Source: Paraburkholderia phytofirmans PsJN
GTDB lineage: Bacteria; Pseudomonadota; Gammaproteobacteria; Burkholderiales; Burkholderiaceae
NCBI RefSeq assembly: GCF_000020125.1
Contig: NC_010676.1
Location: 1,240,001 to 1,304,000 of the forward strand
Length of the DNA: 64,000 nucleotides
Direction of reading: 5' to 3'
Shown here one piece after another: positions 22,332 through 38,401 of the stretch. The notes under the pieces were generated by a model. It had not been told where the DNA came from, made no database searches, and saw only the letters and a list, made by a program, of their open reading frames with translations. Position 1 is the first letter of the stretch. Each line of letters opens with the position of its first letter. A program made the position numbers and the translations under genes.

Positions 22332-22352
22332 CACCCCTAATTACGGGGGGGA
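22332..22352. promoter_or_regulatory. 21-bp palindromic operator, copy 1
   Basis: CACCCCT (22332-22338), 7-bp spacer, GGGGGGA (22346-22352). Placed almost centrally between the divergent sulfatase (175 bp from its ATG) and acyl-CoA ligase (180 bp from its ATG). Same layout as five other copies in the cluster. Confidence 0.7.
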
Positions 22353-22531
22353 GAATTTGTTGCCCCGATCGCTTACCGTGCCTTACCCTGCATCTGAATG
22401 TTGCATAGAGACAAGGCGCTGGTACACGGCGGTGGTTCGCGGCGGAACAGACGGCGGCGGCAACCGGCGGCCCATAACGGATGCAGCTGCCGGTATGGCG
22501 CCGGACCGCAGAAAAATATATGGAGACTGAA

Positions 22532-24232
22532 ATGAGCGGTACGAATTCGGACACACTGGTTCATCGCTTTGTGCACTGGGAGCGTGTGCAGCCTGATACA
22601 CCGTACCTCACCGAGTCGATGCCGGACGGACAGGTCGTGGAGTACACCTGGCAGGAGGTCGGCGATCAGGCCCGGCGCATGGCTGGCTATTTGCAGTCGT
22701 TGCAACTGCCGCCGCGCAGTGCGATCTCGATCGTCGGCAAAAATAGCGCCCACTGGATCATCGCGGATCTGGCGATCTGGATGGCCGGTCACTTCTCGGT
22801 ACCGCTCTACACAACCATCAACGCGGACACTGCGCAGTACATCTTCGAGCACTGCGACGTTCGTTTGCTGTTCGTCGGCAAGCTTGACGGCAAGACTGAC
22901 GGCTGGAATGAAATTCGCAAAGCAGTGCCGCCGCATGCGCGGTTGATCGGCTTGCCCATGTCACCCGTGCCGGAGGCCCTCCAATGGGACGATATCGTCG
23001 CGAGCCAGGCGCCATTACGGGACGTTCACCTGCCGGCTCCAGGCGAACTGGCTACGATCATCTATACATCGGGCACCACCGGCCGTCCCAAGGGCGTCCT
23101 GCACAGCTTCGGGACGATCTTTGCCTATGCGGCGCAGGCAGGTGAATTCTGCGGCTTCACTCCGGCGGACCGCGTTCTGTCCTATCTGCCGCTCGCACAC
23201 ACGGCCGAGCGCTCCTTCGTCGAATCGAATTCGCTTTGCCACGGTTTCCAGGTTTTCTTCAACGATAGTCTTGCTACTTTCGTTCAGGACTTGCATCGCG
23301 CGCGACCGACTGTATTCATTTCGATGCCGCGACTGTGGACCAAGTTCTATCAGGGCGTCTGCGCGAAACTTCCCGCGAGCCAGCAAGCCTTGCTTGAGAC
23401 GGCGAGCCCCGAAGCCGCGGTCATTAAACAGCAGATCCTCACGATGCTCGGGCTCGACGCGACAAGAATCGCCTTTACCGGCTCGGCGCCGCTGCCTGAG
23501 GAAATCACGAACTGGTATCGCATGCTCGGCCTCGAGTTACTGGACGTGTACGGCATGACGGAGAACTTCTCGTACTCGCATTACAGCCGCCCAGGGCTCG
23601 TGCGGCCCGGCTATTGCGGCCAGGCCATGCCGGGCGTCGAATGCCGGATTGCCGGGAATGGCGAGATTCTGCTCAAAGCGCCGACCATGATGCTCGGCTA
23701 CTACAGGCAGCCGGACTTGACCGCGCAAAGCATGACCGAGGACGGCTTCTTCAAAACCGGCGATTGCGGCGAACTCGACGAACTCGGCCGTTTGAAAATC
23801 ACAGGGCGGGTGAAAGAAAACTTCAAGACCAGCAAGGGAAAATATGTGGCTCCCGCGCCCATCGAGAACAAGCTGAGTCATGCAAAAGTTGAAGCCGTGT
23901 GCGCGACGGGGCCGGGGCTCGCCCAGCCGTTCGCGCTGTTGATGCTGTCGGCCGCCGCGCGCGGAGAACTCCAGGGCACGCCTGCGTATGATGCCTTGCG
24001 TGCCGAGCTGCGCGGCATGCTCGACAAGGTCAACGACACGCTTGAAGATCACGAGAAGCTCGCCTTCGCCGTGGTCGTCGCGGATGCCTGGACGTCCGAC
24101 AATGGCTTGCTCACGCCAACCATGAAGATCAGGCGCGGCGCAATCGAGAAACGTTATCTGCCGATGGCCCAGGCGTGGGCTGAACTCGGACAACCCGTCA
24201 TATTCGAAACGCAGTCCGTCAAGACGCAATGA
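22532..24232 (+). CDS. AMP-dependent acyl-CoA synthetase (fatty-acid/carboxylate CoA ligase)
   Basis: 566 residues from ATG 22532 (GGAGA six bases upstream; the open frame extends to 22481). Phosphate-binding loop YTSGTTGRPKGVLHS near residue 175, YGMTENFSYSH near 345, and the hinge/C-terminal motif KTGDCGELDELGRLKITGRVKE with a later lysine in KGKYVAPAPIENKL. It matches long-chain FadD15-like ligases. Reaction: carboxylate + ATP + CoA to acyl-CoA + AMP + PPi. Being divergent from a sulfatase and next to a MalT-type regulator and a beta-oxidation block, it probably activates the cluster's substrate. Confidence 0.9.
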   Translation: MSGTNSDTLVHRFVHWERVQPDTPYLTESMPDGQVVEYTWQEVGDQARRMAGYLQSLQLPPRSAISIVGKNSAHWIIADLAIWMAGHFSVPLYTTINADTAQYIFEHCDVRLLFVGKLDGKTDGWNEIRKAVPPHARLIGLPMSPVPEALQWDDIVASQAPLRDVHLPAPGELATIIYTSGTTGRPKGVLHSFGTIFAYAAQAGEFCGFTPADRVLSYLPLAHTAERSFVESNSLCHGFQVFFNDSLATFVQDLHRARPTVFISMPRLWTKFYQGVCAKLPASQQALLETASPEAAVIKQQILTMLGLDATRIAFTGSAPLPEEITNWYRMLGLELLDVYGMTENFSYSHYSRPGLVRPGYCGQAMPGVECRIAGNGEILLKAPTMMLGYYRQPDLTAQSMTEDGFFKTGDCGELDELGRLKITGRVKENFKTSKGKYVAPAPIENKLSHAKVEAVCATGPGLAQPFALLMLSAAARGELQGTPAYDALRAELRGMLDKVNDTLEDHEKLAFAVVVADAWTSDNGLLTPTMKIRRGAIEKRYLPMAQAWAELGQPVIFETQSVKTQ

Positions 24233-24241
24233 TCCGTTAGC

Positions 24242-24270
24242 AAAAAGGGTATCCGCTATGGCGGATATCC
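24242..24270 (-). terminator. Candidate intrinsic terminator of the MalT-type regulator gene
   Basis: On the minus strand the stem TATCCGC / GCGGATA (24261-24267 with 24250-24256) has a 4-base loop and is followed by CCC and a run of five T. It lies between the convergent ligase and regulator genes. Confidence 0.55.
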
Positions 24271-24323
24271 GATATCACCGGCTCGATCACGCGCGCCGGT
24301 CCGGCAGGCCAAACGGATCGAGG

Positions 24324-27026
24324 CTAGCGGATCAGCTCCTGCTTGCGGGCCCAGACCATCGCGTCATAGCGGCTCGACACGCCGAGTTTGCTGAAAATAT
24401 TGCGCAGATTCCACTTCACCGTCTCGATCGTAATGTCGAGCGCGAGGGCAATACGCTTGTTCGACATGGCCTGGCCGACGAGACTTAGAATCTCGAGCTC
24501 GCGCTGCGTGAGCACCGGCTGCAATTTCGATGCGCCCGCACGGCGCGCATTGCCTGCCAGCCCCTCGGAAATCGCGCTGTCCGGAAACTTTTCGAGCAGG
24601 CCAGTTGCATATTGCAGCGTTGCACCCTCCAGCTTGCCCTCGCGCACCACCTTTGCGAGCAGCCTGCCGGCGGCCGCGCCTTCATCCACAAAGGTACGCA
24701 CGAGACCCAAGCGCTGCGCCGCCTCCACGGCGCGGACGAAGCATGCCTGCGCATCGCTGTCGCTGCGCTGCTCGGCGAGGACGATGGCCGACAGCAGATC
24801 CGCGAGTGCGGCAAGCCGGCCCCGGCCGAACGCCTCGGCATGGCGACGGGTGATTTGCAGTGCCCGCAGTGCTTCCTCAGGTTGGTCGTGACGCAGCACG
24901 CGCGCCCGCGCGAGCGCTGCAATCGCAGGAATTTCCGCCTTGGAGCCTTGTTCGGCGGTATGAGCCTCGGCGATTTCATCGAGCAGGGTCAGCGTTTCGA
25001 GCGCGCCCGCGTGGTCGTGCTTGAGGAGCAGGATTTTGACCTGTTCGGCCAGCATGTGCGCGACCGCGCGGATCTGGCGCATGCTGCGCAGGTGTGCGGT
25101 TTGCTGCTGCACGAAGTCGAGCGCAGCGTCGGCGCTCTCCTGAAGCAGGTCGAGACGCGCCCGGCAGAGCGACGTGTGAATCAATACGTCGGGCCCGGAA
25201 GAATGAAGCAGGCCACGACGGTTCGCAATGGTTTCGCGGGCCACGTCGATGCGGTCGAGTTCATAGCAGGCATCGGCCAGCACGCTCGCACAGATGTTGG
25301 CGCTGATCGAATGGCGGCCCACGGCCTGCACCGAACGCGTGAGCAGGCCCGCGCTCTCGCGTTCGGCCTCGCGCGCATTGCCTTCGAGCAGTATCGTCGA
25401 CGCGCGGGTCGCCTGTGCGACGAGCGCCATGTCGTTGTTGCGTTCGGCCGGCGGAACCGGGTGCAGATTGAAGAGGCGCCGCGCTTCGGTAAAGCGCCCC
25501 GCCGCGGCGTAGGCCGCGCACAGTTCGGCGACCAGCAGATACTGCAGAAAGGGATTGTCGAACGTGTCGCCGCGATGGGGTTCGAGCAGGTCGATCATGC
25601 GTTGCGTGTCGTCGTGCTGGAACGCGATGGCGGCATGAACCAGCGGCAGGCTACTGGCGATCTCCGGATCCGCCGACGCCGCGTTTGCCTGCAGGTGCGC
25701 GAGCCATGCCTTCGCCTTGGCCGGGCGCGTGGTGAGCGCAACCGTCAGGCATGCGATGAACAGCAGCCGCTGATGGCTGAGCAGTGTTTGTTCCGGCAAT
25801 CGTTCAAGCAGATGCAGCGTGGGACCCAGATATTCGACGCTCCACGTGGCCGGCGCCGCGCGCTCGATGACCGACGCGGCAAACTCCACGTCTTCGCCCG
25901 CGCTCGCGTGGCGCACCGCTTCGGCGAGCAGCCCGTGCGCCGCGAACCAGCGGCTCGCGCGCCGATGCAATTCGCGCACGGCATCGCCTTCACGACGTGC
26001 GAGGCGGGTTGCAAGGAACTCCCCGAAAAGCGGATGAAAGCGATACCAGGCTGTTCGGTCGTCCGAGTCGACGCGCGTGATCAGCAGGTTTTCGTCTTCC
26101 ATGCGTTCGAGCAGATCGGCGGCGTGTTCGTTGCCGGTGACCTCACGGGCAAGTGGCGCACTGAAGCGGCGAAAGATCGAGAGCGCCACGGCGAATTCGG
26201 ACAGCTCGGCGGGAAGCTGCGCCATGACCTCTTCGCTCAGATAAGCCTGCAGGTCGCTGGAACGCCAGATCAGGTCGCCGAGCGTGGCCCGCGCATCGGG
26301 CCGGTTCCTGAGCATGATGATGATGAGTTGGATGCACGACGGCCACCCGCCGGTCAGTTCGTGAATGAGCGTGAGTTCGTCGGCGTTGATCTTGCCGGGG
26401 CCGAGGTTTTCGTCGACGAAGCTGCGTGTCTCCGCAAGATCGAACGGCAGACCGTCGCTGTCCAGTTCGACGATCTGGTCCATCATCCGCAGGCGGCTCA
26501 GGCTCAGCGGCGGCGTAAGGCGCGAGCCGATCACGAAATGCAGATTGCCCGGCCCCTGATCGACCAGTTTCTGCATGAACTTGTGCGCGAGCGGCGCCTC
26601 GACGTACTGATAGTCGTCGATCATCAGGTACAGCTCTTTGGGCAATCCGACCGCCGCTTCGACGATGGCCGCAATGGCTGCATCCATGGCCGCGGCGCTG
26701 GCTACTTCGAGCGACAGGTCCGTCGCCACCGAGATGCCGATGCGCTGCATCGCGGCGAACAGCGCCGTGGAGAAATCGGCGTAGCTCTTGTCGTCGGCGG
26801 TGAGCGCGAGCCACGCGACCTCGGCGGACGCCTTCAGGCAAACCTTGCGCCACTGCGCGAGCAGCGTTGTCTTGCCATAACCCGCGCTGCCAGTGACGAG
26901 AGCCAACCGGCAATGACGCTTGCGCTGCAATTGCGCAAGCAGATCCACGCGCGTGATGTACTTCGCGCCGATACGCGGCGGGGAAAACTTGGTGGAAACG
27001 AGATGTTTGGGCGTTGGTGTATTCAA
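24324..27026 (-). CDS. MalT-type LuxR-family ATP-dependent transcriptional activator
   Basis: 900 residues. An N-terminal NTPase of the STAND class: Walker A GSAGYGKTT (about residue 46) and Walker B LYLMIDDYQYV (about 133), with the winged-helix part WYRFHPLFGEFLATRL. The middle (about 400-810) is helical, TPR-like. The C-terminus is a LuxR helix-turn-helix: LTQRELEILSLVGQAMSNKRIALAL, then ITIETVKWNLRNIFSKLGVSSR. Such regulators are activated by a small inducer plus ATP. It sits in the middle of the sulfatase/acyl-CoA cluster, and its promoter region holds one copy of the repeated palindrome, so it is the best candidate for binding all six copies. MalT itself recognises G-rich asymmetric boxes, compatible with AGGGG. 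Confidence 0.88.
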   Translation of the reverse strand: MNTPTPKHLVSTKFSPPRIGAKYITRVDLLAQLQRKRHCRLALVTGSAGYGKTTLLAQWRKVCLKASAEVAWLALTADDKSYADFSTALFAAMQRIGISVATDLSLEVASAAAMDAAIAAIVEAAVGLPKELYLMIDDYQYVEAPLAHKFMQKLVDQGPGNLHFVIGSRLTPPLSLSRLRMMDQIVELDSDGLPFDLAETRSFVDENLGPGKINADELTLIHELTGGWPSCIQLIIIMLRNRPDARATLGDLIWRSSDLQAYLSEEVMAQLPAELSEFAVALSIFRRFSAPLAREVTGNEHAADLLERMEDENLLITRVDSDDRTAWYRFHPLFGEFLATRLARREGDAVRELHRRASRWFAAHGLLAEAVRHASAGEDVEFAASVIERAAPATWSVEYLGPTLHLLERLPEQTLLSHQRLLFIACLTVALTTRPAKAKAWLAHLQANAASADPEIASSLPLVHAAIAFQHDDTQRMIDLLEPHRGDTFDNPFLQYLLVAELCAAYAAAGRFTEARRLFNLHPVPPAERNNDMALVAQATRASTILLEGNAREAERESAGLLTRSVQAVGRHSISANICASVLADACYELDRIDVARETIANRRGLLHSSGPDVLIHTSLCRARLDLLQESADAALDFVQQQTAHLRSMRQIRAVAHMLAEQVKILLLKHDHAGALETLTLLDEIAEAHTAEQGSKAEIPAIAALARARVLRHDQPEEALRALQITRRHAEAFGRGRLAALADLLSAIVLAEQRSDSDAQACFVRAVEAAQRLGLVRTFVDEGAAAGRLLAKVVREGKLEGATLQYATGLLEKFPDSAISEGLAGNARRAGASKLQPVLTQRELEILSLVGQAMSNKRIALALDITIETVKWNLRNIFSKLGVSSRYDAMVWARKQELIR

Positions 27027-27113: not shown

Positions 27114-27134
27114 GCCCCCTCACAACGAGGGGTG
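27114..27134. promoter_or_regulatory. 21-bp palindromic operator, copy 2
   Basis: GCCCCCT (27114-27120), 7-bp spacer, AGGGGTG (27128-27134). Lies in the divergent region between the MalT-type regulator (88 bp from its start) and the enoyl-CoA hydratase (77 bp from its start). Confidence 0.75.
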
Positions 27135-27210
27135 CTATCCGAGGTTGTGAAAACTAACTTACCACAACCGAAGCGGCGATCACATTCGTTCGCGAGATTC
27201 CGGAGGGGAG

Positions 27211-27981
27211 ATGAGTTATTCGCATGCAGTGGTGGACTCGGTCGGCTGGTTGACGTTGGACCGTCCCGCCGCCATGAACAGTTTGAATCGTGAGATGGCG
27301 ACGGGCCTGATCGCGCAGTTGAAAGCGTGGCGCAACGACGACGCCGTACGGGTCCTCGTCGTAACCGGCAACGGCCGCGCTTTCTGCGCGGGTGCCGACC
27401 TGATCGAGGCCGCCGAGGCCACGCAGCCGGGCAGGCGGGAATTCCTGGAACTGATCGTCGAGTTTTTCGACACGCTGCGCGCGTTCCCGAAGCCGGTGAT
27501 CGCCGCGGTCAACGGTCTTGCGCTGGCGGGCGGTCTCGAAGTGGTGCTCGCGTGCGACGTGGTGCTCGCCGCCGAGTCGGCGCGTCTTGGCGACGCACAC
27601 TCGAATTTCGGCGTTTTCCCTGGCGCCGGCGGCGCGGCGATTCTGCCACGCAAGGTGCCGGCGAACGTTGCGCGCTACCTGCTTTTCACAGGCGATGCGA
27701 TGAGTGCCGCCGAGCTCAAGGGCTACGGCCTCGTCAACGAGGTGCTGGCCGACGCGGAACTCAGGCCTCGCGCCCAGGCGCTCGCCCACAAGTTCGCGAA
27801 GAAGAGTCCGCTCGTGCTGGCGCGTATGAAGCGCGTGGCCAACGAGACCGCCGACAAATCGGCAGCGGATGCACTGCGCCACGAATTGCTGGAGCTGCGC
27901 AACCATCAGCGCTCATACGACGTTCAGGAAGGCTTGCGCGCGTTTGCAGAAAAGCGCGAGCCGCAGTTCAAGGGCTGCTGA
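27211..27981 (+). CDS. Enoyl-CoA hydratase/isomerase family protein
   Basis: 256 residues with a strong GGAGG ribosome-binding site. Crotonase fold: GRAFCAGADLIEA (oxyanion hole), LALAGGLEVVLACDVVLAAESARL with one catalytic glutamate (in GGLEV), and FGVFPGAGGAAILPRKV. At the place of the second glutamate of classical hydratases there is histidine (DAHSNFG), as in many EchA paralogues, so the exact reaction (hydration, isomerisation or other) is uncertain. First gene of the rightward beta-oxidation run behind a palindrome copy; the thiolase follows after 27 bp. Confidence 0.87.
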   Translation: MSYSHAVVDSVGWLTLDRPAAMNSLNREMATGLIAQLKAWRNDDAVRVLVVTGNGRAFCAGADLIEAAEATQPGRREFLELIVEFFDTLRAFPKPVIAAVNGLALAGGLEVVLACDVVLAAESARLGDAHSNFGVFPGAGGAAILPRKVPANVARYLLFTGDAMSAAELKGYGLVNEVLADAELRPRAQALAHKFAKKSPLVLARMKRVANETADKSAADALRHELLELRNHQRSYDVQEGLRAFAEKREPQFKGC

Positions 27982-28008: not shown

Positions 28009-29250
28009 ATGGAAAACATCTACATCGTCGGCATGGGCATGACCCCGTTCGGTCGTCATCTCGACAAATCGGTCAAGCAGCTCACGGCCTGGGCGGTCGA
28101 AGACGCCTTGAAGGACTCGGGCTGTGAGCGCGGCTGGGTCGAAGCGGCCTATTTCGGCAACACCACGCAGGGCCACATGCAGGGCCAGCACATGATCCGT
28201 GGCCAGGTGTCGCTGATCCCGCTCGGCTTCGGCGGTATTCCGATCCACAACATCGAAAGCGCCTGCGCGTCGGCAAGCAGCGCATTTCACCTCGCCGTGA
28301 CGCAGCTGCGCGCGGGCATGGCGGATGTCGTGCTGGCCGTGGGCGCGGAGAAGATGTACTCGAGCGACAAGGCGCGCATGTTATCCGTGTTCGACTCCGC
28401 ATGGGACATCGAAACAGCCGAAGCCAACGGGGCGCAGATGGTCGAGCTGGGCAAAGGCGTCACGGTGCCGGAGGGCACGCAGTCCGACAAGCCTTACAGC
28501 GTATTCATGGATGTCTATGCCGGCATCGGCCGCCAGCTGATGTCGCGCTACGGCATCACGCAGCGGCAGTTCGCCGCTGTGTCGTCGAAGAATCACGGTC
28601 ATTCGGTGCACAACGAGCGCTCGCAATATCGCAAGCCGATGTCGATCGAGGAGATTCTCGCGGCGCCGCCGATCACGTTTCCGCTCACATTGCCGATGTG
28701 CTCGCCGATCTCCGATGGCGCCGCCGCCGCGATCCTGTGCACGGAGTCCGCGATGAAGCGATATGGCTTCGACCGCAATCGTGCGGTACGCGTGCTTGCG
28801 ACAATCGTGCGCTCGGCGTCGGCGCGCGCAGGCGAGGATCTCGCCAACCACATCACGGTTCATGCAGCGAAGCTCGCCTATGAAGAAGCGGGTATCGGGC
28901 CCGACGACATCAACGTAGCCGAGCTGCACGACGCGTCGTCGATCGGCGAAATCGCGCTGTGCGAGAACCTTGGCCTGTGCAAGCCGGGCGAGAGCGGCGT
29001 GATGGCCGAGCGCGGCGAGAGCACGATTGGCGGGCGTCTGCCGATCAACCCGTCAGGCGGCCTCGAATCGAAGGGACATCCGATCGGCGCGACGGGCCTC
29101 GGACAGATCTTCGAACTGGTCGGGCAACTGCGAGGCGAATGCGGTCCGCGCCAGGTCGAAGGCGCGCGCTTGGCGATCCAGGGCAACGGCGGCGGCCTGT
29201 GGGGTGTGGAAGAGAGTATCGACCACATCGGCATCTTCGGTCGCGCCTAA
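28009..29250 (+). CDS. SCP-x/lipid-transfer-type thiolase
   Basis: 413 residues. The acyl-accepting cysteine is in NIESACASASSAFHL (about residue 86) and the histidine in SKGHPIGATGLGQIF. Unlike standard members, the HDCF motif reads HDASSIGEI, and the terminal segment reads QGNGGGLWGVEE without the usual cysteine of the GxGG(A)C motif. The second and third catalytic positions are therefore changed, and the protein could be a specialised thiolase or a retro-aldol enzyme of the Ltp2 kind; no DUF35 partner is adjacent. The gene lies between enoyl-CoA hydratase and acyl-CoA dehydrogenase genes with short gaps. Confidence 0.85.
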   Translation: MENIYIVGMGMTPFGRHLDKSVKQLTAWAVEDALKDSGCERGWVEAAYFGNTTQGHMQGQHMIRGQVSLIPLGFGGIPIHNIESACASASSAFHLAVTQLRAGMADVVLAVGAEKMYSSDKARMLSVFDSAWDIETAEANGAQMVELGKGVTVPEGTQSDKPYSVFMDVYAGIGRQLMSRYGITQRQFAAVSSKNHGHSVHNERSQYRKPMSIEEILAAPPITFPLTLPMCSPISDGAAAAILCTESAMKRYGFDRNRAVRVLATIVRSASARAGEDLANHITVHAAKLAYEEAGIGPDDINVAELHDASSIGEIALCENLGLCKPGESGVMAERGESTIGGRLPINPSGGLESKGHPIGATGLGQIFELVGQLRGECGPRQVEGARLAIQGNGGGLWGVEESIDHIGIFGRA

Positions 29251-29276
29251 CCAGAACCATTCAGGGAATACATACC

Positions 29277-30419
29277 ATGCCGTATCAACTGCCCACTGAA
29301 GAGCAGAACCTCGCCGTCGAGAGCTTTCGGAAGTTTCTGCAAGCGGAAGTCAAACCCGTTGCCAGGGAGTATCGCGACCGCTTCATTCCGAAAGAGAAGA
29401 TGCGCGAGCTCACGGAGCGCATCGCCGATTTCGGTCTGCCTGGCTGCACCATCCCTGCTGAATACGGCGGCATGGGCTGGTCGTTCACCACGCAGGGCAT
29501 GCTTTTCGAGGAACTCGTGGCCTGCTCATGCGATATCGCGCTGTGCGTCATGCTCAACATGGGCCTCGCGGCCATGCTGACCAACGCCCGGCCCGAAGTG
29601 CGCGAGCGCTATATGCCCGGTGTGCTGGCCGGCAAGATCTTCGGCTCGATCGGCATCAGCGAGCCGGACGTGGGCTCGAATGTGGCAGAACTGAGAACGC
29701 GCGCCGTGCGCGACGGCGACCACTTCATCGTCAATGGCGAAAAGACCTGGATCACCAACGGCGTTTATTCCGACGTGCTGATCTGCACCGTGCGCGGCGA
29801 AAAAGGTCTCTCGCACATTCTTATCGACCGCAAGGAGCATGGCTACGAGTCGCGCAACATCGACAAGATCGCGCTCGGGTCGCAATCCACCGCACAGATC
29901 TTCATCACCGATGCTCGCGTGCCGGCCACCAACGTGATTGGCGAGGAAGGAGAAGGGCTGCGCAATACGATGAAGGTCTTCGAGCACGCGCGCGCGCACG
30001 TGGGCACGCTGTCGGTCGGGATCATGCGCGCCGCGCTGGAGGAGTCTATCGCATACGCGAAGGAGCGCAAGCAGTTCGGCAAGGTGATCGCGGCGCATCA
30101 GCTGATCGCGGCGAAGCTCGCCAACATGGCGATCATGGTCGACGCGTCGCGCCTGATGTGTCAGCGCGTGTTCGGCCTGATCGACGCGGGCGTTCGTTGC
30201 GACATGCAGGCTTCGATGGCCAAGGCGTTCGCCACTGAAGCTGCTGTCAAGGTGTGCCGGGACGCCGTGCAACTGCACGGCGGCAACGGGATCACGAAGG
30301 AGTTCAACGTCGAGCGTCTGTTGCGCGAAGCGATCATCATCCCGATCCCGGATGGCACGACGGAGATCCAGCAGCTCATCATTTCGCGCGCGCTGACCGG
30401 AGTGGCGGCGTTCGTTTGA
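29277..30419 (+). CDS. Acyl-CoA dehydrogenase
   Basis: 380 residues from ATG 29277 (MPYQLPTEEQNLAVESF). FAD-binding motifs GSIGISEPDVGSNVAEL and VNGEKTWITNGVYSD, and the C-terminal helical part with ERKQFGKVIAAHQLI and LHGGNGITKEFNVERLLRE. Where many family members have YEGTSEIQ, this one has PDGTTEIQQ, so the usual catalytic glutamate at that place is an aspartate. Reaction: FAD-dependent 2,3-dehydrogenation of an acyl-CoA, passing electrons to ETF. It is 26 bp downstream of the thiolase gene. Confidence 0.88.
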   Translation: MPYQLPTEEQNLAVESFRKFLQAEVKPVAREYRDRFIPKEKMRELTERIADFGLPGCTIPAEYGGMGWSFTTQGMLFEELVACSCDIALCVMLNMGLAAMLTNARPEVRERYMPGVLAGKIFGSIGISEPDVGSNVAELRTRAVRDGDHFIVNGEKTWITNGVYSDVLICTVRGEKGLSHILIDRKEHGYESRNIDKIALGSQSTAQIFITDARVPATNVIGEEGEGLRNTMKVFEHARAHVGTLSVGIMRAALEESIAYAKERKQFGKVIAAHQLIAAKLANMAIMVDASRLMCQRVFGLIDAGVRCDMQASMAKAFATEAAVKVCRDAVQLHGGNGITKEFNVERLLREAIIIPIPDGTTEIQQLIISRALTGVAAFV

Positions 30420-30611: not shown

Positions 30612-30632
30612 CACCCCTCGTTTTGCAGGGCG
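30612..30632. promoter_or_regulatory. 21-bp palindromic operator, copy 3 (weakest)
   Basis: CACCCCT (30612-30618), 7-bp spacer, CAGGGCG (30626-30632). The left half is perfect, the right half has mismatches. 138 bp upstream of the thiolase at 30770, and 58 bp centre-to-centre from copy 4. Confidence 0.5.
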
Positions 30633-30669: not shown

Positions 30670-30690
30670 CACCCCTTGAAAGGAGGGGTG
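30670..30690. promoter_or_regulatory. 21-bp palindromic operator, copy 4 (perfect)
   Basis: CACCCCT (30670-30676), 7-bp spacer, AGGGGTG (30684-30690). The symmetry extends one base further on both sides (G...C). 80 bp upstream of the thiolase ATG at 30770. This copy defines the consensus. Confidence 0.8.
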
Positions 30691-30769
30691 CCGGCCCGGC
30701 AGCCGTCTGCCTATGATGAGCCAATGCTGATCGATCCGATCAGCGATCACAACAACTGAAGGAGATCGT

Positions 30770-31951
30770 ATGACGCGCAAAGTCGTCGTCGCGGGCGTGG
30801 GGATGGTCCCGTTCCGGAAGCCTGGTGCCAGCGAAACTTATGACCTGATGGGCGCCGAGGCGGCGCGCCTCGCGCTGACCGATGCCGGAGTCGCGTACCA
30901 GGCGATCCAGCAGGCGTACGCGTGCTTTGTCTATGGCGATTCGACCGCTGGTCAGCGCGCGCTTTACCACGTCGGCATGACCGGCCTGCCGATCATCAAC
31001 GTCAACAATAATTGCTCCACCGGTTCGACGGGGCTCTTCCTCGCGCGCCAGGCCATCGAGGCCGGCGCGCTCGACGTCGTGCTCGTGCTCGGCTTCGAGC
31101 AGATGAATCCGGGCGCACTCGGCAGCTATTTCCACGACCGGCCGCTGCCTTCCGAACTGTTTCTTAAGCAGTGCGATCGCCTCGGCGTGCCGCCTGAAAT
31201 TGCGCCGGCCCTGCGCATTTTTGGCGGCGCGGGCATGGAGCACATGAAGCGCTTCGGCACACCGCTCGAAAGTTTCGCGAAGATTCGCGCGAAGGCGAGC
31301 CGTCACGCGGCCAACAACCCGCACGCGGTGTTCCACAAGGTAGTCACAACTGAAGACGTGATGGCCGACCAGGTCATGTGGTCCGGCGTGATGACGCGCA
31401 TGATGGCGTGCCCGCCGACTTGCGGCGCGGCTGCCGCCGTACTGTGCAGCGAGGATTACGCGAAGAAGCACGGCCTCGACACACGCGTGTGGATTGCCGC
31501 CCAGGCGCTGACGACAGACGGCCCGGAATCTCTCGAAGGGGACGACCTGCGAGACGTGGCCGGCTTCAGCATGGCGAGAAACGCGGCGCGCCAGGTGTAC
31601 GAGGCCGCGGGCATCGGCGCCGAAGACGTGAACGTGATCGAACTGCACGATTGCTTCGCGCACAACGAACTGATTACCTATGAAGCGCTCGGACTGTGCC
31701 CGGAAGGCGGCGCGGCGAAATTCATCGACGATGGCGACAACACCTACGGCGGGCGCTATATCGTCAATCCGTCGGGCGGCCTGCTTTCGAAAGGACACCC
31801 GCTCGGTGCGACAGGACTCGCGCAATGCACGGAACTGGTCCAGCAACTGCGCGGCACAGCTGCTGAGCGGCAGGTCGAAGGCGCGCGCGTTGCCTTGCAG
31901 CACAACGTGGGCATCGGCGGTGCGTGCGTGGTGACCATGTACTGCAACTGA
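30770..31951 (+). CDS. SCP-x-type thiolase (3-ketoacyl-CoA thiolase)
   Basis: 393 residues with GGAG before the ATG. All expected catalytic elements are seen: NNNCSTGSTGLFL with the nucleophilic cysteine (about residue 83), the HDCFAHNELITYEAL motif, SKGHPLGATGLAQC with its histidine, and the terminal VGIGGACVVTMY with cysteine. This matches the thiolase domain of sterol-carrier-protein-x, which cleaves 3-keto-acyl-CoAs with 2-methyl branches or sterol side chains. It heads the second rightward transcript, behind two operator copies, and is followed after 13 bp by an acyl-CoA dehydrogenase. Confidence 0.9.
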   Translation: MTRKVVVAGVGMVPFRKPGASETYDLMGAEAARLALTDAGVAYQAIQQAYACFVYGDSTAGQRALYHVGMTGLPIINVNNNCSTGSTGLFLARQAIEAGALDVVLVLGFEQMNPGALGSYFHDRPLPSELFLKQCDRLGVPPEIAPALRIFGGAGMEHMKRFGTPLESFAKIRAKASRHAANNPHAVFHKVVTTEDVMADQVMWSGVMTRMMACPPTCGAAAAVLCSEDYAKKHGLDTRVWIAAQALTTDGPESLEGDDLRDVAGFSMARNAARQVYEAAGIGAEDVNVIELHDCFAHNELITYEALGLCPEGGAAKFIDDGDNTYGGRYIVNPSGGLLSKGHPLGATGLAQCTELVQQLRGTAAERQVEGARVALQHNVGIGGACVVTMYCN

Positions 31952-31964
31952 CCGGGAGGCGCAG

Positions 31965-33164
31965 ATGGATTTTCAACCCGATGCAGGGCTCGAGGCATTT
32001 CGTGAGCAAGTGCGTGCATTCCTGCGCGAGCACCTGCCGCGCGATCTTGCAGGCAAACCGGTGGGCAGCGTTCGCTCCATGCGGCCCGATCTTGTGCGCT
32101 GGCAAAAGATCCTGAATCAGCAAGGTTGGGGCGCGCCGTACTGGGCAAAAAAGGACGGTGGCACGGGCTGGTCGGTTCTGCAGCGTCTCGTCTTCGACGA
32201 AGAGTGCATCGCGGCGGGCGCGCCGACCCAGGACGGATTCGCGCAGAAGCTGCTCGGTCCGGTGCTGAACGAATTTGCGTCGCCGGAACAGAAGGGCGAG
32301 CATGTGCCGCTCATTCTCGCTGGCGAGCGGCTTTGGTGTCAGGGTTTTTCGGAGCCGGGCTCGGGCTCGGACCTCGCGTCGCTGCGCACGCGCGCCGAGC
32401 GCGATGGCGATCATTACATCGTCAATGGCCAGAAGATCTGGACAAGCTACGCGCATGAATCGGATTGGATTTTTCTGCTCGTGCGGACCGATACCGAAGT
32501 GAAGAAGCAGGCCGGCATCAGCTTCCTGCTGGTGGACATGAAGACGCCGGGCATCACGGTGCGTCCGATCCGCAGCATCGACGACTGCCATCATCTGAAC
32601 GAGACTTTCTTCGACAACGTGCGCGTGCCGGTAGCCAACCGCGTCGGTGCGGAAGGCGCAGGCTGGACGATCACAAAGTTCCTGCTCAACAACGAGCACG
32701 CGAGCGCAGCGGACCTGCCGATCCTGCGGCGTTATCTGATGCAACTCCGCACGCTGGCGGCAACGCAGCGCGTGGGGTGTGAGCCGTTGATTGCACAGCC
32801 GGCCTTCGCGTTGCGCTTGGCGCGTCTCGAAGCCGAAGTGAGCGCGGTCGCCACAATGGTCAAGCGCGTCGCGGCGATGGAGCAGGACCACAGTCCCGCC
32901 GCCCATGCAATGGGATCGATCCTCAAGGTGCGAGGCACGGAGCTTCAGCAGCGCATCAGCGAGCTGATGGTCGAAGCGCTCGGCGACTACGGCGCGGTGG
33001 CTTACCCCGAACCGCACGATACGTGCGAGGCAGAACCCTTGCCGCACCAGGACGTGGCGCGTGGCCTTGCCAACGAGATGTTTTTCCGCCGCGCGTCGAC
33101 GATCTACGGCGGCACGAGCGAAGTCCAGCGCGGCATCATCGCGAAGATGCTGTTTCAACTCTGA
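31965..33164 (+). CDS. Acyl-CoA dehydrogenase, probable subunit of a heteromeric enzyme
   Basis: 399 residues. Clear FAD and substrate motifs: WCQGFSEPGSGSDLASLRTRA, VNGQKIWTSYAHESDW and FFRRASTIYGGTSEVQRGIIAKM. The position of the usual YEGTS glutamate is glycine (YGGTSE), as in many heteromeric FadE proteins of steroid and cholesterol side-chain catabolism. The partner gene at 33180 follows after 15 bp and lacks several FAD motifs, as expected of an alpha2-beta2 pair. Reaction: 2,3-dehydrogenation of an acyl-CoA. Confidence 0.88.
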   Translation: MDFQPDAGLEAFREQVRAFLREHLPRDLAGKPVGSVRSMRPDLVRWQKILNQQGWGAPYWAKKDGGTGWSVLQRLVFDEECIAAGAPTQDGFAQKLLGPVLNEFASPEQKGEHVPLILAGERLWCQGFSEPGSGSDLASLRTRAERDGDHYIVNGQKIWTSYAHESDWIFLLVRTDTEVKKQAGISFLLVDMKTPGITVRPIRSIDDCHHLNETFFDNVRVPVANRVGAEGAGWTITKFLLNNEHASAADLPILRRYLMQLRTLAATQRVGCEPLIAQPAFALRLARLEAEVSAVATMVKRVAAMEQDHSPAAHAMGSILKVRGTELQQRISELMVEALGDYGAVAYPEPHDTCEAEPLPHQDVARGLANEMFFRRASTIYGGTSEVQRGIIAKMLFQL

Positions 33165-33179: not shown

Positions 33180-34334
33180 ATGAACTTTACTCTCAGTGCA
33201 GAGCAGCAGTTGCTGCAGGATAGCGTCCGGCGCTTCGTCGACAGGGATTACAGCTTCGAAACGCGCATGGCGTTCGTCAAGGCACGTTCGACGTGCAGCG
33301 CAACGCATTGGCAAACTTTCGCGGACAACGGCTGGCTCGCAGCGGCGTTGCCCGAGTCTTGCGGCGGCTTCGACGGTTCGCTGACCGACACGGTGTTGAT
33401 CGCCTCGGAACTCGGTCGTGGACTCGTCATCGAGCCTTATCTCGGCTGTGCGGTGCTGGCGGCGCAAACGCTGCTCGCGGGCGCTACGCCGGCGCAACGC
33501 GAGCAATGGCTACCGGCGCTCGCCGACGGCTCGCGCAAGTTCGCGCTCGCGTACAGCGAGGCGCAGTCGCGTGGCTTTCCCGAGTTCGTCGAAACGAGCG
33601 CGACGCCGACGCCGGATGGCTACTCGCTCGCCGGCTCCAAGACACTCGTGCTGGGCGGCGCGGATGCCGACAGCTTCATCGTTTCGGCGCGTGCGCAGGA
33701 CGCCGAGGGCATCACGCTCATGTTGGTGCCGGGGGACGCACCGGGCCTCGCTCGCCGTGTGCTGCCGTTGCACGACGGCAGCTTCGCCGCCGAACTGACG
33801 CTCGACGGCGTGCGCGTGACCCGTGAAGCGGTGCTCGGTGTGCCGGGACCCGGACTCACGGCGCTCCGGCACGCGCTCTCTCACGCGACAGCGGCGCTCG
33901 GCGCGGAACTGGTCGGCGCGATGGAAAAGTCCATCGAACTCACCGCCGAATATTTGAGGGTGCGCAAGCAGTTCGGCGTGCCCATCGGCAGCTTCCAGGC
34001 GCTGCAGCACCGTCTCGCGGACATGGCGGCGGAAATGGAGCTCGCGCGCTCGATGCTCCATGCGCTGCTCGGCTCGCTTGAAAACGACGCGCCACCCGCT
34101 CGCCTGCGAGCGGTCTCTCAGGCCAAATCGGTGATCGGCCGCGCCGCGCGCTTCGTGTGCGGCCAGGCGATCCAGTTGCATGGCGGCATCGGCATGACCG
34201 AGGAATACCAGGTCGGTCACTACTACAAACGGGCGGTCGTCGCCGACGCGCTGTTCGGCAGCAGCGACCAGCACGACGCCGCTTGCGCCGCGCAACTGCA
34301 AAACGAATTGCTTCAAAAGGAAAACCACGCATGA
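33180..34334 (+). CDS. Acyl-CoA dehydrogenase, probable second subunit of the heteromeric enzyme
   Basis: 384 residues beginning MNFTLSAEQQLLQDSVRRFVD. Family features include LPESCGGFDGSLTDTVLIASELGRGLVIEPYL, RVRKQFGVPIGSFQALQHRLADMAAEMELARSML and QAIQLHGGIGMTEEYQVGHYYKR. The central FAD-contact region is degenerate (YSEAQSRGFPEF instead of the TEPxxGSD motif). Together with the preceding gene, 15 bp upstream, this fits the paired FadE architecture. Its stop overlaps the start of the MaoC gene (ATGA), indicating translational coupling. Confidence 0.87.
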   Translation: MNFTLSAEQQLLQDSVRRFVDRDYSFETRMAFVKARSTCSATHWQTFADNGWLAAALPESCGGFDGSLTDTVLIASELGRGLVIEPYLGCAVLAAQTLLAGATPAQREQWLPALADGSRKFALAYSEAQSRGFPEFVETSATPTPDGYSLAGSKTLVLGGADADSFIVSARAQDAEGITLMLVPGDAPGLARRVLPLHDGSFAAELTLDGVRVTREAVLGVPGPGLTALRHALSHATAALGAELVGAMEKSIELTAEYLRVRKQFGVPIGSFQALQHRLADMAAEMELARSMLHALLGSLENDAPPARLRAVSQAKSVIGRAARFVCGQAIQLHGGIGMTEEYQVGHYYKRAVVADALFGSSDQHDAACAAQLQNELLQKENHA

Positions 34335-34786
34335 AGAGTTTCCAGAAAATCGCCGATCTGCAACCGCTGGTCGGCGAATCGCTCGGCACGAGCGAATGGC
34401 TGTCGATCGATCAGCAGCGTGTCAATCAGTTTGCGGACGCAACAGGGGACCACCAGTGGATCCACGTCGACGTGGAGCGCGCGCAGAAGGGTCCGTTCGG
34501 CGGGACGATCGCGCATGGCTTCCTCACGCTGAGCCTGCTGCCCGCGTTCTTCGCGACCGCCTTCGAAATCAAGGAAACGAAAAGTGGCCTGAATTACGGG
34601 CTCGACAAGGTGCGCTTCATTGCGCCGGTCGCGGTCGGCAAACGGCTCCGCGCGCACTTCAAACTCATGGAGTGGAGCGAGTTAAAAGGCGGCGGCGCGC
34701 AGTTGAAGATCGAAATGACCGTCGAATGCGAGGGCGCGGACAAGCCCGCATGCGTCGCGGAGTCGATCACGCGCCTATTTCCCTGA
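34331..34786 (+). CDS. MaoC-like (R)-specific enoyl-CoA hydratase
   Basis: 151 residues from ATG 34331, overlapping the preceding stop by 4 bp. Hot-dog fold with the hydratase-2 motif in FADATGDHQWIHVDVERA (aspartate and histidine of the catalytic pair) and GPFGGTIAHGFLTLSLLPAF. NodN/MaoC-type single-domain hydratases hydrate 2-enoyl-CoAs. With the SCP-x thiolase and the multifunctional-enzyme-type dehydrogenase next to it, it would supply the (R)-hydroxyacyl-CoA branch of peroxisome-like beta-oxidation. Confidence 0.88.
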   Translation: MKSFQKIADLQPLVGESLGTSEWLSIDQQRVNQFADATGDHQWIHVDVERAQKGPFGGTIAHGFLTLSLLPAFFATAFEIKETKSGLNYGLDKVRFIAPVAVGKRLRAHFKLMEWSELKGGGAQLKIEMTVECEGADKPACVAESITRLFP

Positions 34787-34822
34787 TATTCCATGAGTGA
34801 CAATGTTCGAGGAGATTCAAGC

Positions 34823-35725
34823 ATGAGTATTCGTTTCGATGGCAAGGTCGCGATCGTGACCGGCGCGGGCGCGGGTCTTGGCCGAGCACATGCGCTGGCG
34901 TTCGCGGCGCGTGGCGCGAAGGTGGTCGTCAATGATTTCGGCGGCGCGCGCGATGGCACGGGCGGTTCGTCCGAGGCAGCGCTCGCGGTGGTCGAAGAGA
35001 TCCGCCAGGCAGGCGGCACGGCGATCGCCGACGGCGCGAACGTGGCGGACTACGAGCAGGTGCAGGCAATGGTCAAGCGCGCGGTGAGCGAGTTCGGCCG
35101 CGTCGACATTCTCGTCAATAACGCGGGCATCCTGCGCGACAAGAGCTTTACGAAGCTCGAAATGACCGACATCAAGGCGGTTCTCGACGTTCATCTGATG
35201 GGTGCGATCAACTGCTCGAAGGCGGTATGGGACGTCATGCGCGAGCAGAACTACGGCCGCATCGTCATGACCACTTCGTCGTCCGGCATGTACGGCAACT
35301 TCGGGCAATCGAACTACGGCGCGGCGAAGATGGCGGTGATTGGCCTGATGAATGCGCTTACGACCGAAGGCCGGAAGAACAACATCCTGGTCAACACGAT
35401 CGCACCGGTTGCGGCGACGCGCATGACCGCGGACATCCTGCCGGAAGCAATGCTCGAGCGTATCCAGCCGGAGCGCGTGACGCCCGCCGTGTTGTTCCTC
35501 GCGAGCGAGAACGCGCCGTCGAAAACCATCATCGCAGCGGGCGGCGGCGCATTCGCCGCGGCGACCATCGTCGAATGCGCGCCGGTGCTGCTGTCCGATG
35601 ACGACGTCACGCCGGAAGGCGTCGCCGCTCGCTTCGGCGATATCGCTGACTGGAGCACTGCGCGTGCATACGGCGAGTCGGGCGAACAGGTGCAGCGTTT
35701 CCTGAAGCTCGTCTGCGACATGTAA
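34823..35725 (+). CDS. Short-chain dehydrogenase, (R)-3-hydroxyacyl-CoA dehydrogenase type (MFE-2-like)
   Basis: 300 residues from ATG 34823 (GGAGA upstream; an in-frame ATG at 34793 lacks one). Motifs: cofactor site TGAGAGLGRAHALAFA, VNDFGGARDGTGGSSEAA, NNAGILRD and the catalytic SNYGAAKMAVIGL. The insertion VNDFGGARDGTG and the length of about 300 are typical of the dehydrogenase domain of 17-beta-HSD type 4/multifunctional enzyme 2. It would oxidise the product of the MaoC hydratase to 3-ketoacyl-CoA for the thiolase. Last gene of the transcript; a strong terminator follows. Confidence 0.88.
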   Translation: MSIRFDGKVAIVTGAGAGLGRAHALAFAARGAKVVVNDFGGARDGTGGSSEAALAVVEEIRQAGGTAIADGANVADYEQVQAMVKRAVSEFGRVDILVNNAGILRDKSFTKLEMTDIKAVLDVHLMGAINCSKAVWDVMREQNYGRIVMTTSSSGMYGNFGQSNYGAAKMAVIGLMNALTTEGRKNNILVNTIAPVAATRMTADILPEAMLERIQPERVTPAVLFLASENAPSKTIIAAGGGAFAAATIVECAPVLLSDDDVTPEGVAARFGDIADWSTARAYGESGEQVQRFLKLVCDM

Positions 35726-35779: not shown

Positions 35780-35832
35780 GTCGCTCAAGCGCTTGCTCAA
35801 TGCAATTCAAGGGCACGTGCAAACGATGGGCG

Positions 35833-35866
35833 AAAAAAAGCTTGCATGAAGTTCTTTCATGCAAGC
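35833..35866 (-). terminator. Rho-independent terminator of the leftward acyl-CoA dehydrogenase transcript
   Basis: GCTTGCATGAA (35840-35850), 5-base loop, TTCATGCAAGC (35856-35866): a perfect 11-bp stem. Read on the minus strand it is followed by TTTTTTT (35833-35839). It lies 37 bp after the stop at 35903. Confidence 0.88.
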
Positions 35867-35902
35867 CGGACTTCGTTTCGACCTTAACGTCTTAATGGTC
35901 GC

Positions 35903-37048
35903 TCAATCCAGGTTGCGCGAAATGATCAGCTTCTGGATGTGGCTCGTTCCTTCGTAGATCTTGCAGATGCGCACGTCGCGCAGATATCGTTCGACCGGGA
36001 AATCAGTCAGGTAGCCATACCCGCCATGAATCTGCAAGGCGTCGGAGCATACCTTCTCCGCAATCTCGCTCGCGAACAATTTGGCAATGGACGCCTCCTT
36101 GATACAGTCGAAACCGGCATCGCGCAGTCGTGCGGCGTGAAGGCAGTATTGCCATGCAACGTCGACCTGCGCGGCCATATCCGCGAGATCGAAAGCGACG
36201 GCTTGAAGTTTGGTGAGCGGGCCGCCGTACGCCTCGCGTTCGCGCGCGTATTTGACGGCGGCGTCCAGCGCTCCCCGCGCTACGCCCGCCGAGATGAACG
36301 CGATGCCGATGCGGCCGTCCGAGACACCCGCCATCACGGTGCGATAACCGTCGCCCTCCAGGCCAAGCAGGTTTTCCGCCGGCACCCGGTAGCCTTCGAG
36401 CGCGATCTGTGCCGTGTGCGCGGTGTGCTGACCGAGCTTGCTTTCGATACGAGTGACGCTGTAGCCCGGCGCGTTCGGGTCGATGATGAAGGTGCTCGCG
36501 CCGCGTTTGCCCGCAGCCTTGTCAGTAATGGCGAACGCAATCCCGACGCCGGCCTCGCTGCCATTCGAAATGAACTGCTTGGTGCCGTTGAGCACGTAGT
36601 GATCACCCTCGCGGCGGGCACTCGCGCGCAGCGAGGCGGTGTCGGAGCCCGCGTGCGGTTCGGTCAGCAAGAACGCACCGATCGACTCGCCGCATGCCAT
36701 GGCGGGCAGGTAACGCTGCTTTTGCGTTTCGGTGCCGTGCTCGACGATCGTGAGCGCAGTGAAATTGTGCACGTGCATGATGGTGGCGAGTCCGGCATCG
36801 ACCGCCGCGAACTCGTGCTGCGCGATGCAGAAGTCGAGGATGCCCGCACCGGATCCTCCGTATTGCTCGGGGATCAGCATGCCGAGAAAACCGAGTTCGG
36901 CGAGCGCCTTCAATTCGCTGCGCGGCCAGGCGGACTGGAGATCGCGTTCGGCGGCGGTGGGTGCGATGATTTCGTTCGCCACTCGGCGCGCGGTGTCGCG
37001 AATCAACGTCTGTTGCTCGGTGAGGAACGAGCGGTTGGAGTCGGTCAT
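35903..37048 (-). CDS. Acyl-CoA dehydrogenase (short/branched-chain type)
   Basis: 381 residues with a complete motif set: LLTEPHAGSDTASLRASA, LNGTKQFISNGSEAGV, DGRIGIAFISAGVARGALDAAVKY, and the catalytic glutamate in CKIYEGTSHIQKLIISR. Unlike the three rightward acyl-CoA dehydrogenases this one has the canonical glutamate. Its start overlaps the stop of the CoA-transferase/racemase gene by 4 bp (ATGA), so the two are translationally coupled and transcribed leftward from the region with operator copy 5. Confidence 0.9.
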   Translation of the reverse strand: MTDSNRSFLTEQQTLIRDTARRVANEIIAPTAAERDLQSAWPRSELKALAELGFLGMLIPEQYGGSGAGILDFCIAQHEFAAVDAGLATIMHVHNFTALTIVEHGTETQKQRYLPAMACGESIGAFLLTEPHAGSDTASLRASARREGDHYVLNGTKQFISNGSEAGVGIAFAITDKAAGKRGASTFIIDPNAPGYSVTRIESKLGQHTAHTAQIALEGYRVPAENLLGLEGDGYRTVMAGVSDGRIGIAFISAGVARGALDAAVKYAREREAYGGPLTKLQAVAFDLADMAAQVDVAWQYCLHAARLRDAGFDCIKEASIAKLFASEIAEKVCSDALQIHGGYGYLTDFPVERYLRDVRICKIYEGTSHIQKLIISRNLD

Positions 37049-38196
37049 GGGTTGGGTCCGTTCACGTTTGAGGCAGGTTTCGGTTGGTTAGGCAGCCAGT
37101 CGCCCAGCACATCGTCCTGGTGCTCGCCGCGCCGCGGAATTGGTCCGGGGCGGCTTGCCGGGGTTGCCGAGAAGCGTGGCGCCGGCGCGGCTTGCAGCAC
37201 ACCGTCATCACGCGTATAGACACCGCGTGCATGCATGTGCGGATGGGTCGCCGCCTCGTCAGGGCTGAGCACCGGCGCAAAGCAGGCGTCGGTTCCTTCG
37301 AGTAGCGCACACCACTCATCGCGGCTGCGCTCGAGAAAAAGCGTGGCGAAGCGTTCGCGCAACTGTGGCCAACTGCTCGCGTCGTAGGGCCTGTCGAAGA
37401 GCGGGTCGGCGCCGAGGCCGAGCTTTTCTCGCAGTTCACGATAAAACTTGGGTTCGAGCGATCCGACGGAAATAAAGCCGCCTTCGGCGCAGCGGTAAGT
37501 GTTGTACCAATGCGGGCCGTCCAGCAGGCTTTGGCCGCGCTCGCTGCGCATCTGCCCCGACGCTTGCAATGCGAGTAGCAGCGTCGTCATGTGCGCGCTG
37601 CCGTCCACGATGGCAGCGTCCACCACCTGGCCCACGCCTGTCGCGCGCGCGTTCATGATTCCGGCGAGCAGGCCCACCGCGAGATACATCGCTCCGCCGC
37701 CCACATCGCCAACCAGGCTCGGGGGTGTCACGGGCGCTTCGCCGGGCTGTCCTGCATACCAGAGCGCACCGGACAGCGCGATGTAATTCAGGTCGTGGCC
37801 GGCCGCGTGAGCGAGCGGGCCGTCCTGCCCCCAGCCTGTCATGCGTCCGTAAATGAGGCGCGAATTACGCCCAAGACAAATGTCGGGACCGAGGCCTAGT
37901 CGCTCCATCACACCCGGACGCATGCCTTCAATGAGGGCGTCGCTCTGCTCGATGAGACGCAAGACGGTCTCGACGCCTTCGACCGTCTTGAGATCGACCG
38001 CCACGGAGCGTTTGCCGCGATTGGCGAGTTGCGTGCCGCCGAGGTCGAGCGCATCGGGACCGGCTTCGATGCGATCCACCACGACCACATCCGCGCCGAG
38101 ATCGGCGAACAGCATGGCGCAGAACGGACCGGGGCCGATGCCGGCGATTTCCAGAACTTTTAGCCCGGCGAGCGGACCTTGTCGTTTTGTTGTCAT
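37045..38196 (-). CDS. CaiB/BaiF family protein, probable alpha-methylacyl-CoA racemase
   Basis: 383 residues from ATG 38196 (MTTKRQGPLAGLKVLEIAGI; the open frame runs further upstream without support). The N-terminal GIGPGPFCAMLFADLGADVVVVDR and the LANRGKRSVAVDLK segment match alpha-methylacyl-CoA racemases, which invert the 2-methyl stereocentre of branched acyl-CoAs so that (2S)-specific dehydrogenases can act. The aspartate of the family is in MGLVGDVGGGAMYLAVGLL-like VGDVGGGAMY. A CoA-transferase role is the alternative. It is coupled to an acyl-CoA dehydrogenase gene, and an operator copy lies 61 bp upstream of its start. Confidence 0.85.
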   Translation of the reverse strand: MTTKRQGPLAGLKVLEIAGIGPGPFCAMLFADLGADVVVVDRIEAGPDALDLGGTQLANRGKRSVAVDLKTVEGVETVLRLIEQSDALIEGMRPGVMERLGLGPDICLGRNSRLIYGRMTGWGQDGPLAHAAGHDLNYIALSGALWYAGQPGEAPVTPPSLVGDVGGGAMYLAVGLLAGIMNARATGVGQVVDAAIVDGSAHMTTLLLALQASGQMRSERGQSLLDGPHWYNTYRCAEGGFISVGSLEPKFYRELREKLGLGADPLFDRPYDASSWPQLRERFATLFLERSRDEWCALLEGTDACFAPVLSPDEAATHPHMHARGVYTRDDGVLQAAPAPRFSATPASRPGPIPRRGEHQDDVLGDWLPNQPKPASNVNGPNP

Positions 38197-38256
38197 GGGT
38201 GATGGTCTCGGTACATGTTGACAGGAGCCATCGTAGAGAGTGCGAGTAGTGCCTTG

Positions 38257-38277
38257 CTCCCCCAATCTTGAGGGGGG
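38257..38277. promoter_or_regulatory. 21-bp palindromic operator, copy 5
   Basis: CTCCCCC (38257-38263), 7-bp spacer, AGGGGGG (38271-38277). 61 bp upstream of the leftward racemase-family gene. Confidence 0.7.
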
Positions 38278-38380
38278 ACGGCGCGACTTTTACGGAGCCT
38301 ATTCTTGCGAGGCGCCGCACTACAGCTCGTTGCGCCTCGCGTTTTTCCGTTCGATCCGTGCCATACGACAGCAGATTGAG

Positions 38381-38401
38381 GCCCCCCATTAGCGAGGGGG
38401 T
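38381..38401. promoter_or_regulatory. 21-bp palindromic operator, copy 6
   Basis: GCCCCCC (38381-38387), 7-bp spacer, AGGGGGT (38395-38401). 154 bp upstream of the porin ATG at 38555; probably serves the rightward porin-SDR transcript. Confidence 0.7.

Follow-up and report, generated by a model that had tools for sequence, protein, structure and literature searches.

A conserved inverted repeat at the -35 position as the probable operator of a MalT-type regulator in a catabolic gene block of Paraburkholderia phytofirmans

In the available part of one account (PMC3282765), the MalT-type (LAL) regulators are called a poorly studied family. For Actinoplanes sp. SE50/110, the available sections of a second account (PMC7567727) describe MalT (ACSP50_3915) as the activator of 40 of the 51 genes of one region, through an operator, TCATCC-N5-GGATGA, that lies over the -35 element, 34.4 ± 1.0 nt from the start, before 17 starts; activation was shown there via deletion and overexpression, and the operator also occurs in relatives. 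The same sections quote the E. coli and Klebsiella MalT box as GGGGA(T/G)GAGG. Here we describe six palindromes in a 64,000-nucleotide stretch of Paraburkholderia phytofirmans PsJN (NC_010676.1, positions 1,240,001 to 1,304,000; "the window", whose own numbering is used throughout), which are very probably the operators of one local catabolic regulon, activated by a 900-amino-acid LAL protein encoded among its genes.

As in Actinoplanes, to the extent covered by those sections, a MalT-type regulator lies within a local block and a 6-5-6 palindrome overlaps the -35 region; the half-site differs, being GAGGGG here and GGATGA there, as do the genes concerned, which encode beta-oxidation enzymes and a sulfatase here (as judged from sequence) and amino-acid and transport functions there. 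With the MalT systems of E. coli and Klebsiella, as quoted, the locus shares a G-rich box overlapping -35, which there serves an ATP-dependent MalT-type activator, whereas the boxes there are repeated, direct repeats included, and the promoters here usually carry one inverted repeat each. In gene content, with an SCP2-type thiolase, a racemase and paired acyl-CoA dehydrogenases (ACADs), the block resembles sterol and branched-chain beta-oxidation systems (6hsj, 1x74, 4x28, 6wy9). A first-pass annotation of the window had called the regulon undescribed, and nothing contradicts this in the literature searched, mostly without subscription papers, which holds no account of the gene set or the palindrome.

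All six 21-mers listed by that annotation were read where it had placed them, at 22332, 27114, 30612, 30670, 38257 and 38381. Its description of uniform 7-bp arms applies to 30670 alone, because the sites pair at 4, 5, 4, 7, 5 and 5 of 7 arm positions, respectively; 30670 is indeed symmetric, with an eighth pair (G30669-C30691). In the alignment all six sites have CCCC (positions 3-6), G (14) and GGG (17-19), the core kept in relatives is CCCCTC-N5-GAGGGG, and refinement on 52 distinct sites gave the consensus CCCCCCTCGTAACGAGGGGGG. The claim that all six are intergenic stands if the alpha-methylacyl-CoA racemase-like gene (AMACR) starts at or below 38196, at its first ATG/GTG; under a longer TTG reading, to 38265, it fails for 38257.

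Within the window, CACCCCTN7AGGGGTG with at most 3 mismatches matched 7 times, against 1.89 ± 1.46 expected, a number reached by 0 of 100 shuffles; these matches comprise five of the six sites together with 55265 and 61829, and 38381 is missed at this threshold. When matrices were built from five sites, the held-out site ranked 3, 3, 6, 6, 6 or 8 among 63,980 window positions. On the six-site matrix the sites reach 15.1-22.2, whereas the best window position not overlapping them (33942) reaches 10.7, which agrees with the earlier statement that the other intergenic regions of the window carry no such sites. A genome-wide pattern search also favoured the regulon: in the own genome (8,214,658 bases, 3 contigs), exact MCCCCYN7RGGGGK has 4 matches, at 22332, 27114, 30670 and 38381, all four in the block, and a backwards control pattern has 0. 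Looser matches are no commoner than the control, with 30 against 31 at one mismatch or fewer (overlapping registers counted), so that off-block palindromes occur at chance level, and CCCCN8GNGGGG gave 12 rows at about 11 distinct places, 4 of them being the sites described here. A genome-wide regulon was rejected on this equality with the control and on the presence of a -10 at only 1 of 20 off-block sites. That one (L177, G000:C3:1451761-1451780) is the sole off-block site to have a -10-like box correctly spaced from it; two others of the 20 obtain 14.8 and 15.9 with the refined matrix, no lower than 30612 (13.9), and both lack a -10. The site at 30612 is the weakest of the six, with no -10 on either side, and among the relatives a second site at this place was seen in G120 alone.

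The distance from palindrome to -10 was examined, outward in both directions, for 60 sites that reach 13.9 or more with the six-site matrix across 14 regions, one of them the window; a site closer than about 80-100 bp to the end of its region was not counted, and L046-L049, L051 and L055 were left out as duplicate records of genomes already included. Of the 120 flanks, 61 have a TANNNT starting at offset 20-22 past the 21-mer, whereas the remaining 59 offsets average 0.25; if 23 is admitted as well, 52 of the 60 sites show the motif on one side or both, including five of the six in the window. A good -35 hexamer is lacking: the best agreement with TTGACA, allowing spacers of 16-18 bp, is 4 of 6 bases, reached by 5 of these 61 promoters. 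The promoters of the enoyl-CoA hydratase (ECH), thiolase, ligase, porin, AMACR and sulfatase genes have differing -10 sequences at a nearly equal distance. In regions fetched later for exact matches (L182-L186), 11 of 13 non-overlapping sites follow the same spacing, compared with 1 of the 20 off-block own-genome sites and 1 of 9 bare palindromes from G077, G121 and G043, genomes without a close LAL (the 9 being part of about 17 distinct exact matches there). No site scoring at least 11 was found in the block-flanking stretches (L187-L189, 55 kb).

This spacing suggests the layout of an activator covering the -35 region. Repressors are frequent in acyl-CoA pathways and a site over -35 is a repressor location too, so the same palindromes could serve a protein that blocks polymerase until a pathway acyl-CoA frees it. 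Such promoters, however, would hardly function without an activator, because a good -35 hexamer is lacking, and the fixed spacing as well as the Actinoplanes precedent, as far as the available sections describe it, favour activation, making repression very unlikely. The spacing likewise speaks strongly against the palindromes being chance G+C-rich inverted repeats, hairpins or terminators with no regulatory role. The chance-level count of near matches across the own genome and the bare palindromes of other genomes would fit that explanation, but the positions of the sites and their conservation do not, and we give it a negligible probability.

Of 150 family genomes, 8, among them the own genome, encode a relative of the LAL protein with at least 65% identity; 11 loci were found in named genome contigs. 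Thirteen regions of relatives, each picked for its LAL gene, were scanned with the six-site matrix, and 12 of them, all except G040, carry sites scoring at least 13 upstream of block-gene orthologues; a 1-Mb Markov simulation produced nothing scoring 14 or above. Wherever the divergent ECH/LAL pair was seen, its intergenic site is retained, G040 excepted. A thiolase site of at least 14 is present in G120, G128, G116, G081, G146, L050, L052 and L053, and a weak one (11-13) in L054 and one G065 copy; it is absent in G108 and L056. The AMACR-side site reaches at least 14 in 6 of 7 non-G040 regions having the gene (12.7 in G065). In G116 and G081 the sulfatase, sulfatase-modifying factor (FGE) and ligase genes lie on contigs other than that of the LAL gene, yet their sites are kept with the -10 spacing; therefore the regulator acts in trans. 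The sites at orthologous genes, their fixed distance from the -10, their retention at unlinked genes and their chance-level frequency elsewhere make a strong case, on sequence grounds, that one regulator controls all these transcripts, as had been predicted.

The LAL protein is the probable regulator. It carries a Walker A motif (GSAGYGKT), with N-terminal AAA/STAND matches mostly below Pfam cut-offs, and a C-terminal LuxR helix-turn-helix (GerE, 838-893, 50.8 bits, cut-off 23.5), and its residues 10-419 match the MalT part 8bob in PDB (167 bits); because it scores 322 bits on the E. coli MalT equivalog NF003420, under the curated cut-off of 537, it is a MalT relative, not MalT itself. The support for the earlier choice of this protein is indirect: the sites follow the close LAL gene, the half-site shifts in G040, and the layout matches that of the mutant-tested Actinoplanes activator. 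Among 18 rows with LAL identity of at least 44% (L051 and L123 being the same gene), 16 have the palindrome upstream and two do not: G040 (L024) and the fragmentary L056, although other scans of the L056 region did show a site. G065 holds four LAL paralogues, 47-85% identical to that of the window, in about 70 kb (G065:C37:24490-93113; L018, L122-L124), all four with a CCCC/GGGG palindrome upstream. A search of the same 150 genomes with the SCP2-type thiolase gave matches of at least 85% only in the 8 genomes with LAL of at least 65%, and in a test that started from 30 thiolase loci with 1.5-kb flanks, a site scoring at least 11 was found at 8 of the 9 loci beside such a LAL and at 0 of the 21 others (59-76% thiolase identity), a result that genome kinship may explain in part.

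The sites could instead be operators of another, perhaps unlinked regulator, of TetR, GntR or other LuxR type, with the LAL gene a mere neighbour or target. Action in trans, with sites before LAL-unlinked genes in two relatives, would agree with this, as would a TetR gene in G120, the one other regulator met beside such sites (regulator annotation of the loci being partial), which itself has a site upstream. Across 9 genomes searched, however, close matches to this TetR occur in 4, namely G120, G146, G065 and, with an internal stop, G081, and none in G000 (own), G128, G108, G116 or G040; it was rejected as the common regulator. The -35-overlapping position fits an activator, the palindrome precedes all four G065 paralogues, the sites track the close LAL and not the thiolase per se, and in G040 the half-site is altered along with a diverged LAL. 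We therefore consider another regulator improbable.

In G040 (L073-L074, G040:C12) the LAL protein is 49-50% identical to that of the window, and the six-site matrix gave one site of 12.6. Its ECH, pimD and short-chain dehydrogenase (SDR1) promoters lack the palindrome and carry GGGAGG boxes, whose spacing from the -10 is close to that of GAGGGG. A pattern of GGxGGKG, 18-23 nt and TANNNT occurs at six distinct places in 40 kb of G040 (8 rows, three being registers of one G run) and 0 times in 116 kb of other sequence; it is partly fitted, because it was designed after three of the six places had been seen. In the recognition helix, G040 has K in place of R875 (a position counted manually). From the hexamers GAGGGG (window), GGGAGG (G040) and GGATGA (Actinoplanes), one may tentatively propose, with more doubt than confidence, that MalT-type regulators in general read a fixed 6-5-6 inverted repeat over -35, with specificity residing in a permuted purine-rich hexamer.

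Several observations weigh against assigning the sites to an activating LAL protein. The 13 regions were picked by their LAL gene, and the layout counts overstate independence because orthologous promoters are related; close LALs and close thiolases co-occur in the thiolase-first test. The thiolase site is absent in G108. No TANNNT lies at the expected distance at 30612 or on the sulfatase side of 22332, nor is there a -10 on the LAL side of the ECH/LAL site in the window or any orthologous intergenic region listed, so that autoactivation of the LAL gene is unsupported there; two other LAL paralogues (G065 79958, L054 20802) do have a -10 on the LAL side. Upstream of distant LALs (26-38% identity), CCCC palindromes occur in 15 of 58 rows (L027 and L147 being the same gene) against 3.4 in shuffles and 8 of 58 in a reversed control, an association that is not proven. 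Some genomes that lack a close LAL contain just as many bare palindromes (G077 has 7 rows and G136 has 12, partly overlapping registers of poly-C/G runs), and since such genomes can match the others and some rows are C/G-run registers, bare counts per genome were rejected as proof.

Three further observations concern such palindromes and LAL genes elsewhere. Palindromes like ACCCCTACGTNGGAGGGGT are kept within one genus at L190, L191 and L194-L196 (G077, G121, G043), without a close LAL or the -10 spacing, and perhaps belong to another regulator. A full-length LAL homologue lies within 20 kb of 25 of 37 listed thiolase places, including pairs distant from that of the window; LAL regulators are therefore frequent companions of this thiolase type, and such clusters elsewhere may each have their own operator. 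Past the matched 3' end of distant (28-30%) LAL genes, CCCCCCCATGCGCGGGGGG recurs as a possible terminator, or operator of the next gene (Table).

On the preferred reading, activation by the LAL protein, we infer the following sequence of events. With ATP and an inducer, probably a pathway acyl-CoA or its precursor, the protein, as a dimer or a larger oligomer, would bind CCCCTC-N5-GAGGGG. The centre of the operator lies 31-33 bp before the first -10 base, or at about -43 to -45 assuming -12 for that base. The operator would replace the -35 element, and the bound protein would recruit sigma-70 RNA polymerase there, turning on five transcript groups: the ligase (perhaps with sulfatase-FGE), ECH-thiolase-ACAD, thiolase-ACAD-ACAD-134aa-SDR, AMACR-ACAD and porin-SDR.

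Table. Putative operators, predicted -10 boxes and genes of the block in window coordinates, and places of CCCCCCCATGCGCGGGGGG in other genomes.
Feature	Position	Strand	Remarks
Operator 1	22332..22352	.	rightward to AMP-ligase, possibly leftward to sulfatase-FGE; ligase site also in G120, G065
Predicted -10 TACCGT, ligase transcript	22374..22379	+	offset 21 from operator 1
Operator 2	27114..27134	.	rightward to ECH-thiolase-ACAD
Predicted -10 TAACTT, ECH	27155..27160	+	CTAACTTA in 11/12 ECH rows, exception G065 paralogue
Site 3, weak upstream accessory	30612..30632	.	without -10
Operator 4, fully paired	30670..30690	.	rightward to thiolase-ACAD-ACAD-134aa-SDR
Predicted -10 TATGAT, thiolase operon	30712..30717	+	
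Operator 5	38257..38277	.	-10 boxes both sides: AMACR-ACAD leftward, porin rightward
Predicted -10 TACGAT, AMACR-ACAD	38230..38235	-	
Predicted -10 TATTCT, toward porin	38300..38305	+	
Operator 6	38381..38401	.	rightward to porin-SDR
Predicted -10 TATCCT, porin	38422..38427	+	
Sulfatase-modifying factor (FGE) domain protein	19321..20664	-	Pfam/NCBIfam scans
Sulfatase	20505..22172	-	Pfam/NCBIfam scans
AMP-forming acyl-CoA ligase	22481..24232	+	Pfam and NCBIfam scans
MalT-type LAL regulator, proposed activator	24324..27026	-	900 aa from TTG start
Enoyl-CoA hydratase (ECH)	27211..27981	+	Pfam and NCBIfam scans
Thiolase / lipid-transfer type	28009..29250	+	Pfam and NCBIfam scans
Acyl-CoA dehydrogenase (ACAD)	29250..30419	+	match begins at residue 113 of the scanned frame, 28959-30419; start assigned by position beside thiolase stop
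SCP2-type thiolase	30770..31951	+	NCBIfam scan, PDB match
Acyl-CoA dehydrogenase, pimC-like	31965..33164	+	NCBIfam scan, PDB match
Acyl-CoA dehydrogenase, pimD-like	33180..34334	+	NCBIfam scan
Conserved 134-aa protein	34396..34800	+	
Short-chain dehydrogenase (SDR)	34793..35725	+	Pfam/NCBIfam scans
Acyl-CoA dehydrogenase	35903..37048	-	Pfam and NCBIfam scans
Alpha-methylacyl-CoA racemase-like (AMACR; CoA_transf_3)	37045..38196	-	Pfam scan, PDB match
Porin	38540..39670	+	Pfam/NCBIfam scans
Short-chain dehydrogenase	39747..40493	+	Pfam/NCBIfam scans
CCCCCCCATGCGCGGGGGG	G093:C2:1751209; G063:C23:95156; G141:C1:2824646; G110:C1:1874135; G011:C1:1744636; G032:C24:252811; G102:C4:1490066; G118:C3:146270	either	~100-145 bp past matched 3' end of LAL gene

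By Pfam and NCBIfam the block comprises two thiolases, four acyl-CoA dehydrogenases and two short-chain dehydrogenases. The second thiolase matches SCP2-thiolase type 1 in PDB (6hsj, 432 bits), the CoA_transf_3 protein matches methylacyl-CoA racemase (1x74, 337 bits), and the pimC-like dehydrogenase matches 6wy9 and 4x28, the latter of which we take to be a mycobacterial cholesterol enzyme. Steroid-ring degradation was judged by the HsaA-type oxygenase alone (NF045629, cut-off 450 bits): 0 of 9 genomes exceed the cut-off, the best scores being 267 (G128) and 257 (G065), with 150 in the own genome, so that ring degradation by the HsaA route is unsupported. Because of these enzyme matches and the absence of an HsaA above cut-off, we lean, with low confidence, to a methyl-branched side chain of isoprenoid or sterol-like type as the substrate, which may also be sulfated. 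The 134-aa protein of the thiolase operon has no Pfam or PDB match and is 45-63% identical in relatives. Just outside the block, window positions 15546-17096 on the minus strand encode a BTAD domain fused to an alpha/beta hydrolase domain.

These results supply an operator, a promoter layout and a regulator, each open to direct test, for a catabolic gene set conserved in Paraburkholderia and Caballeronia, and would provide a second case of a 6-5-6 palindrome over -35 for MalT-type activators. If the proposed half-site code were true, recognition-helix changes such as that at R875 could be read as a code, and orphan LAL clusters might be assigned regulons from sequence.

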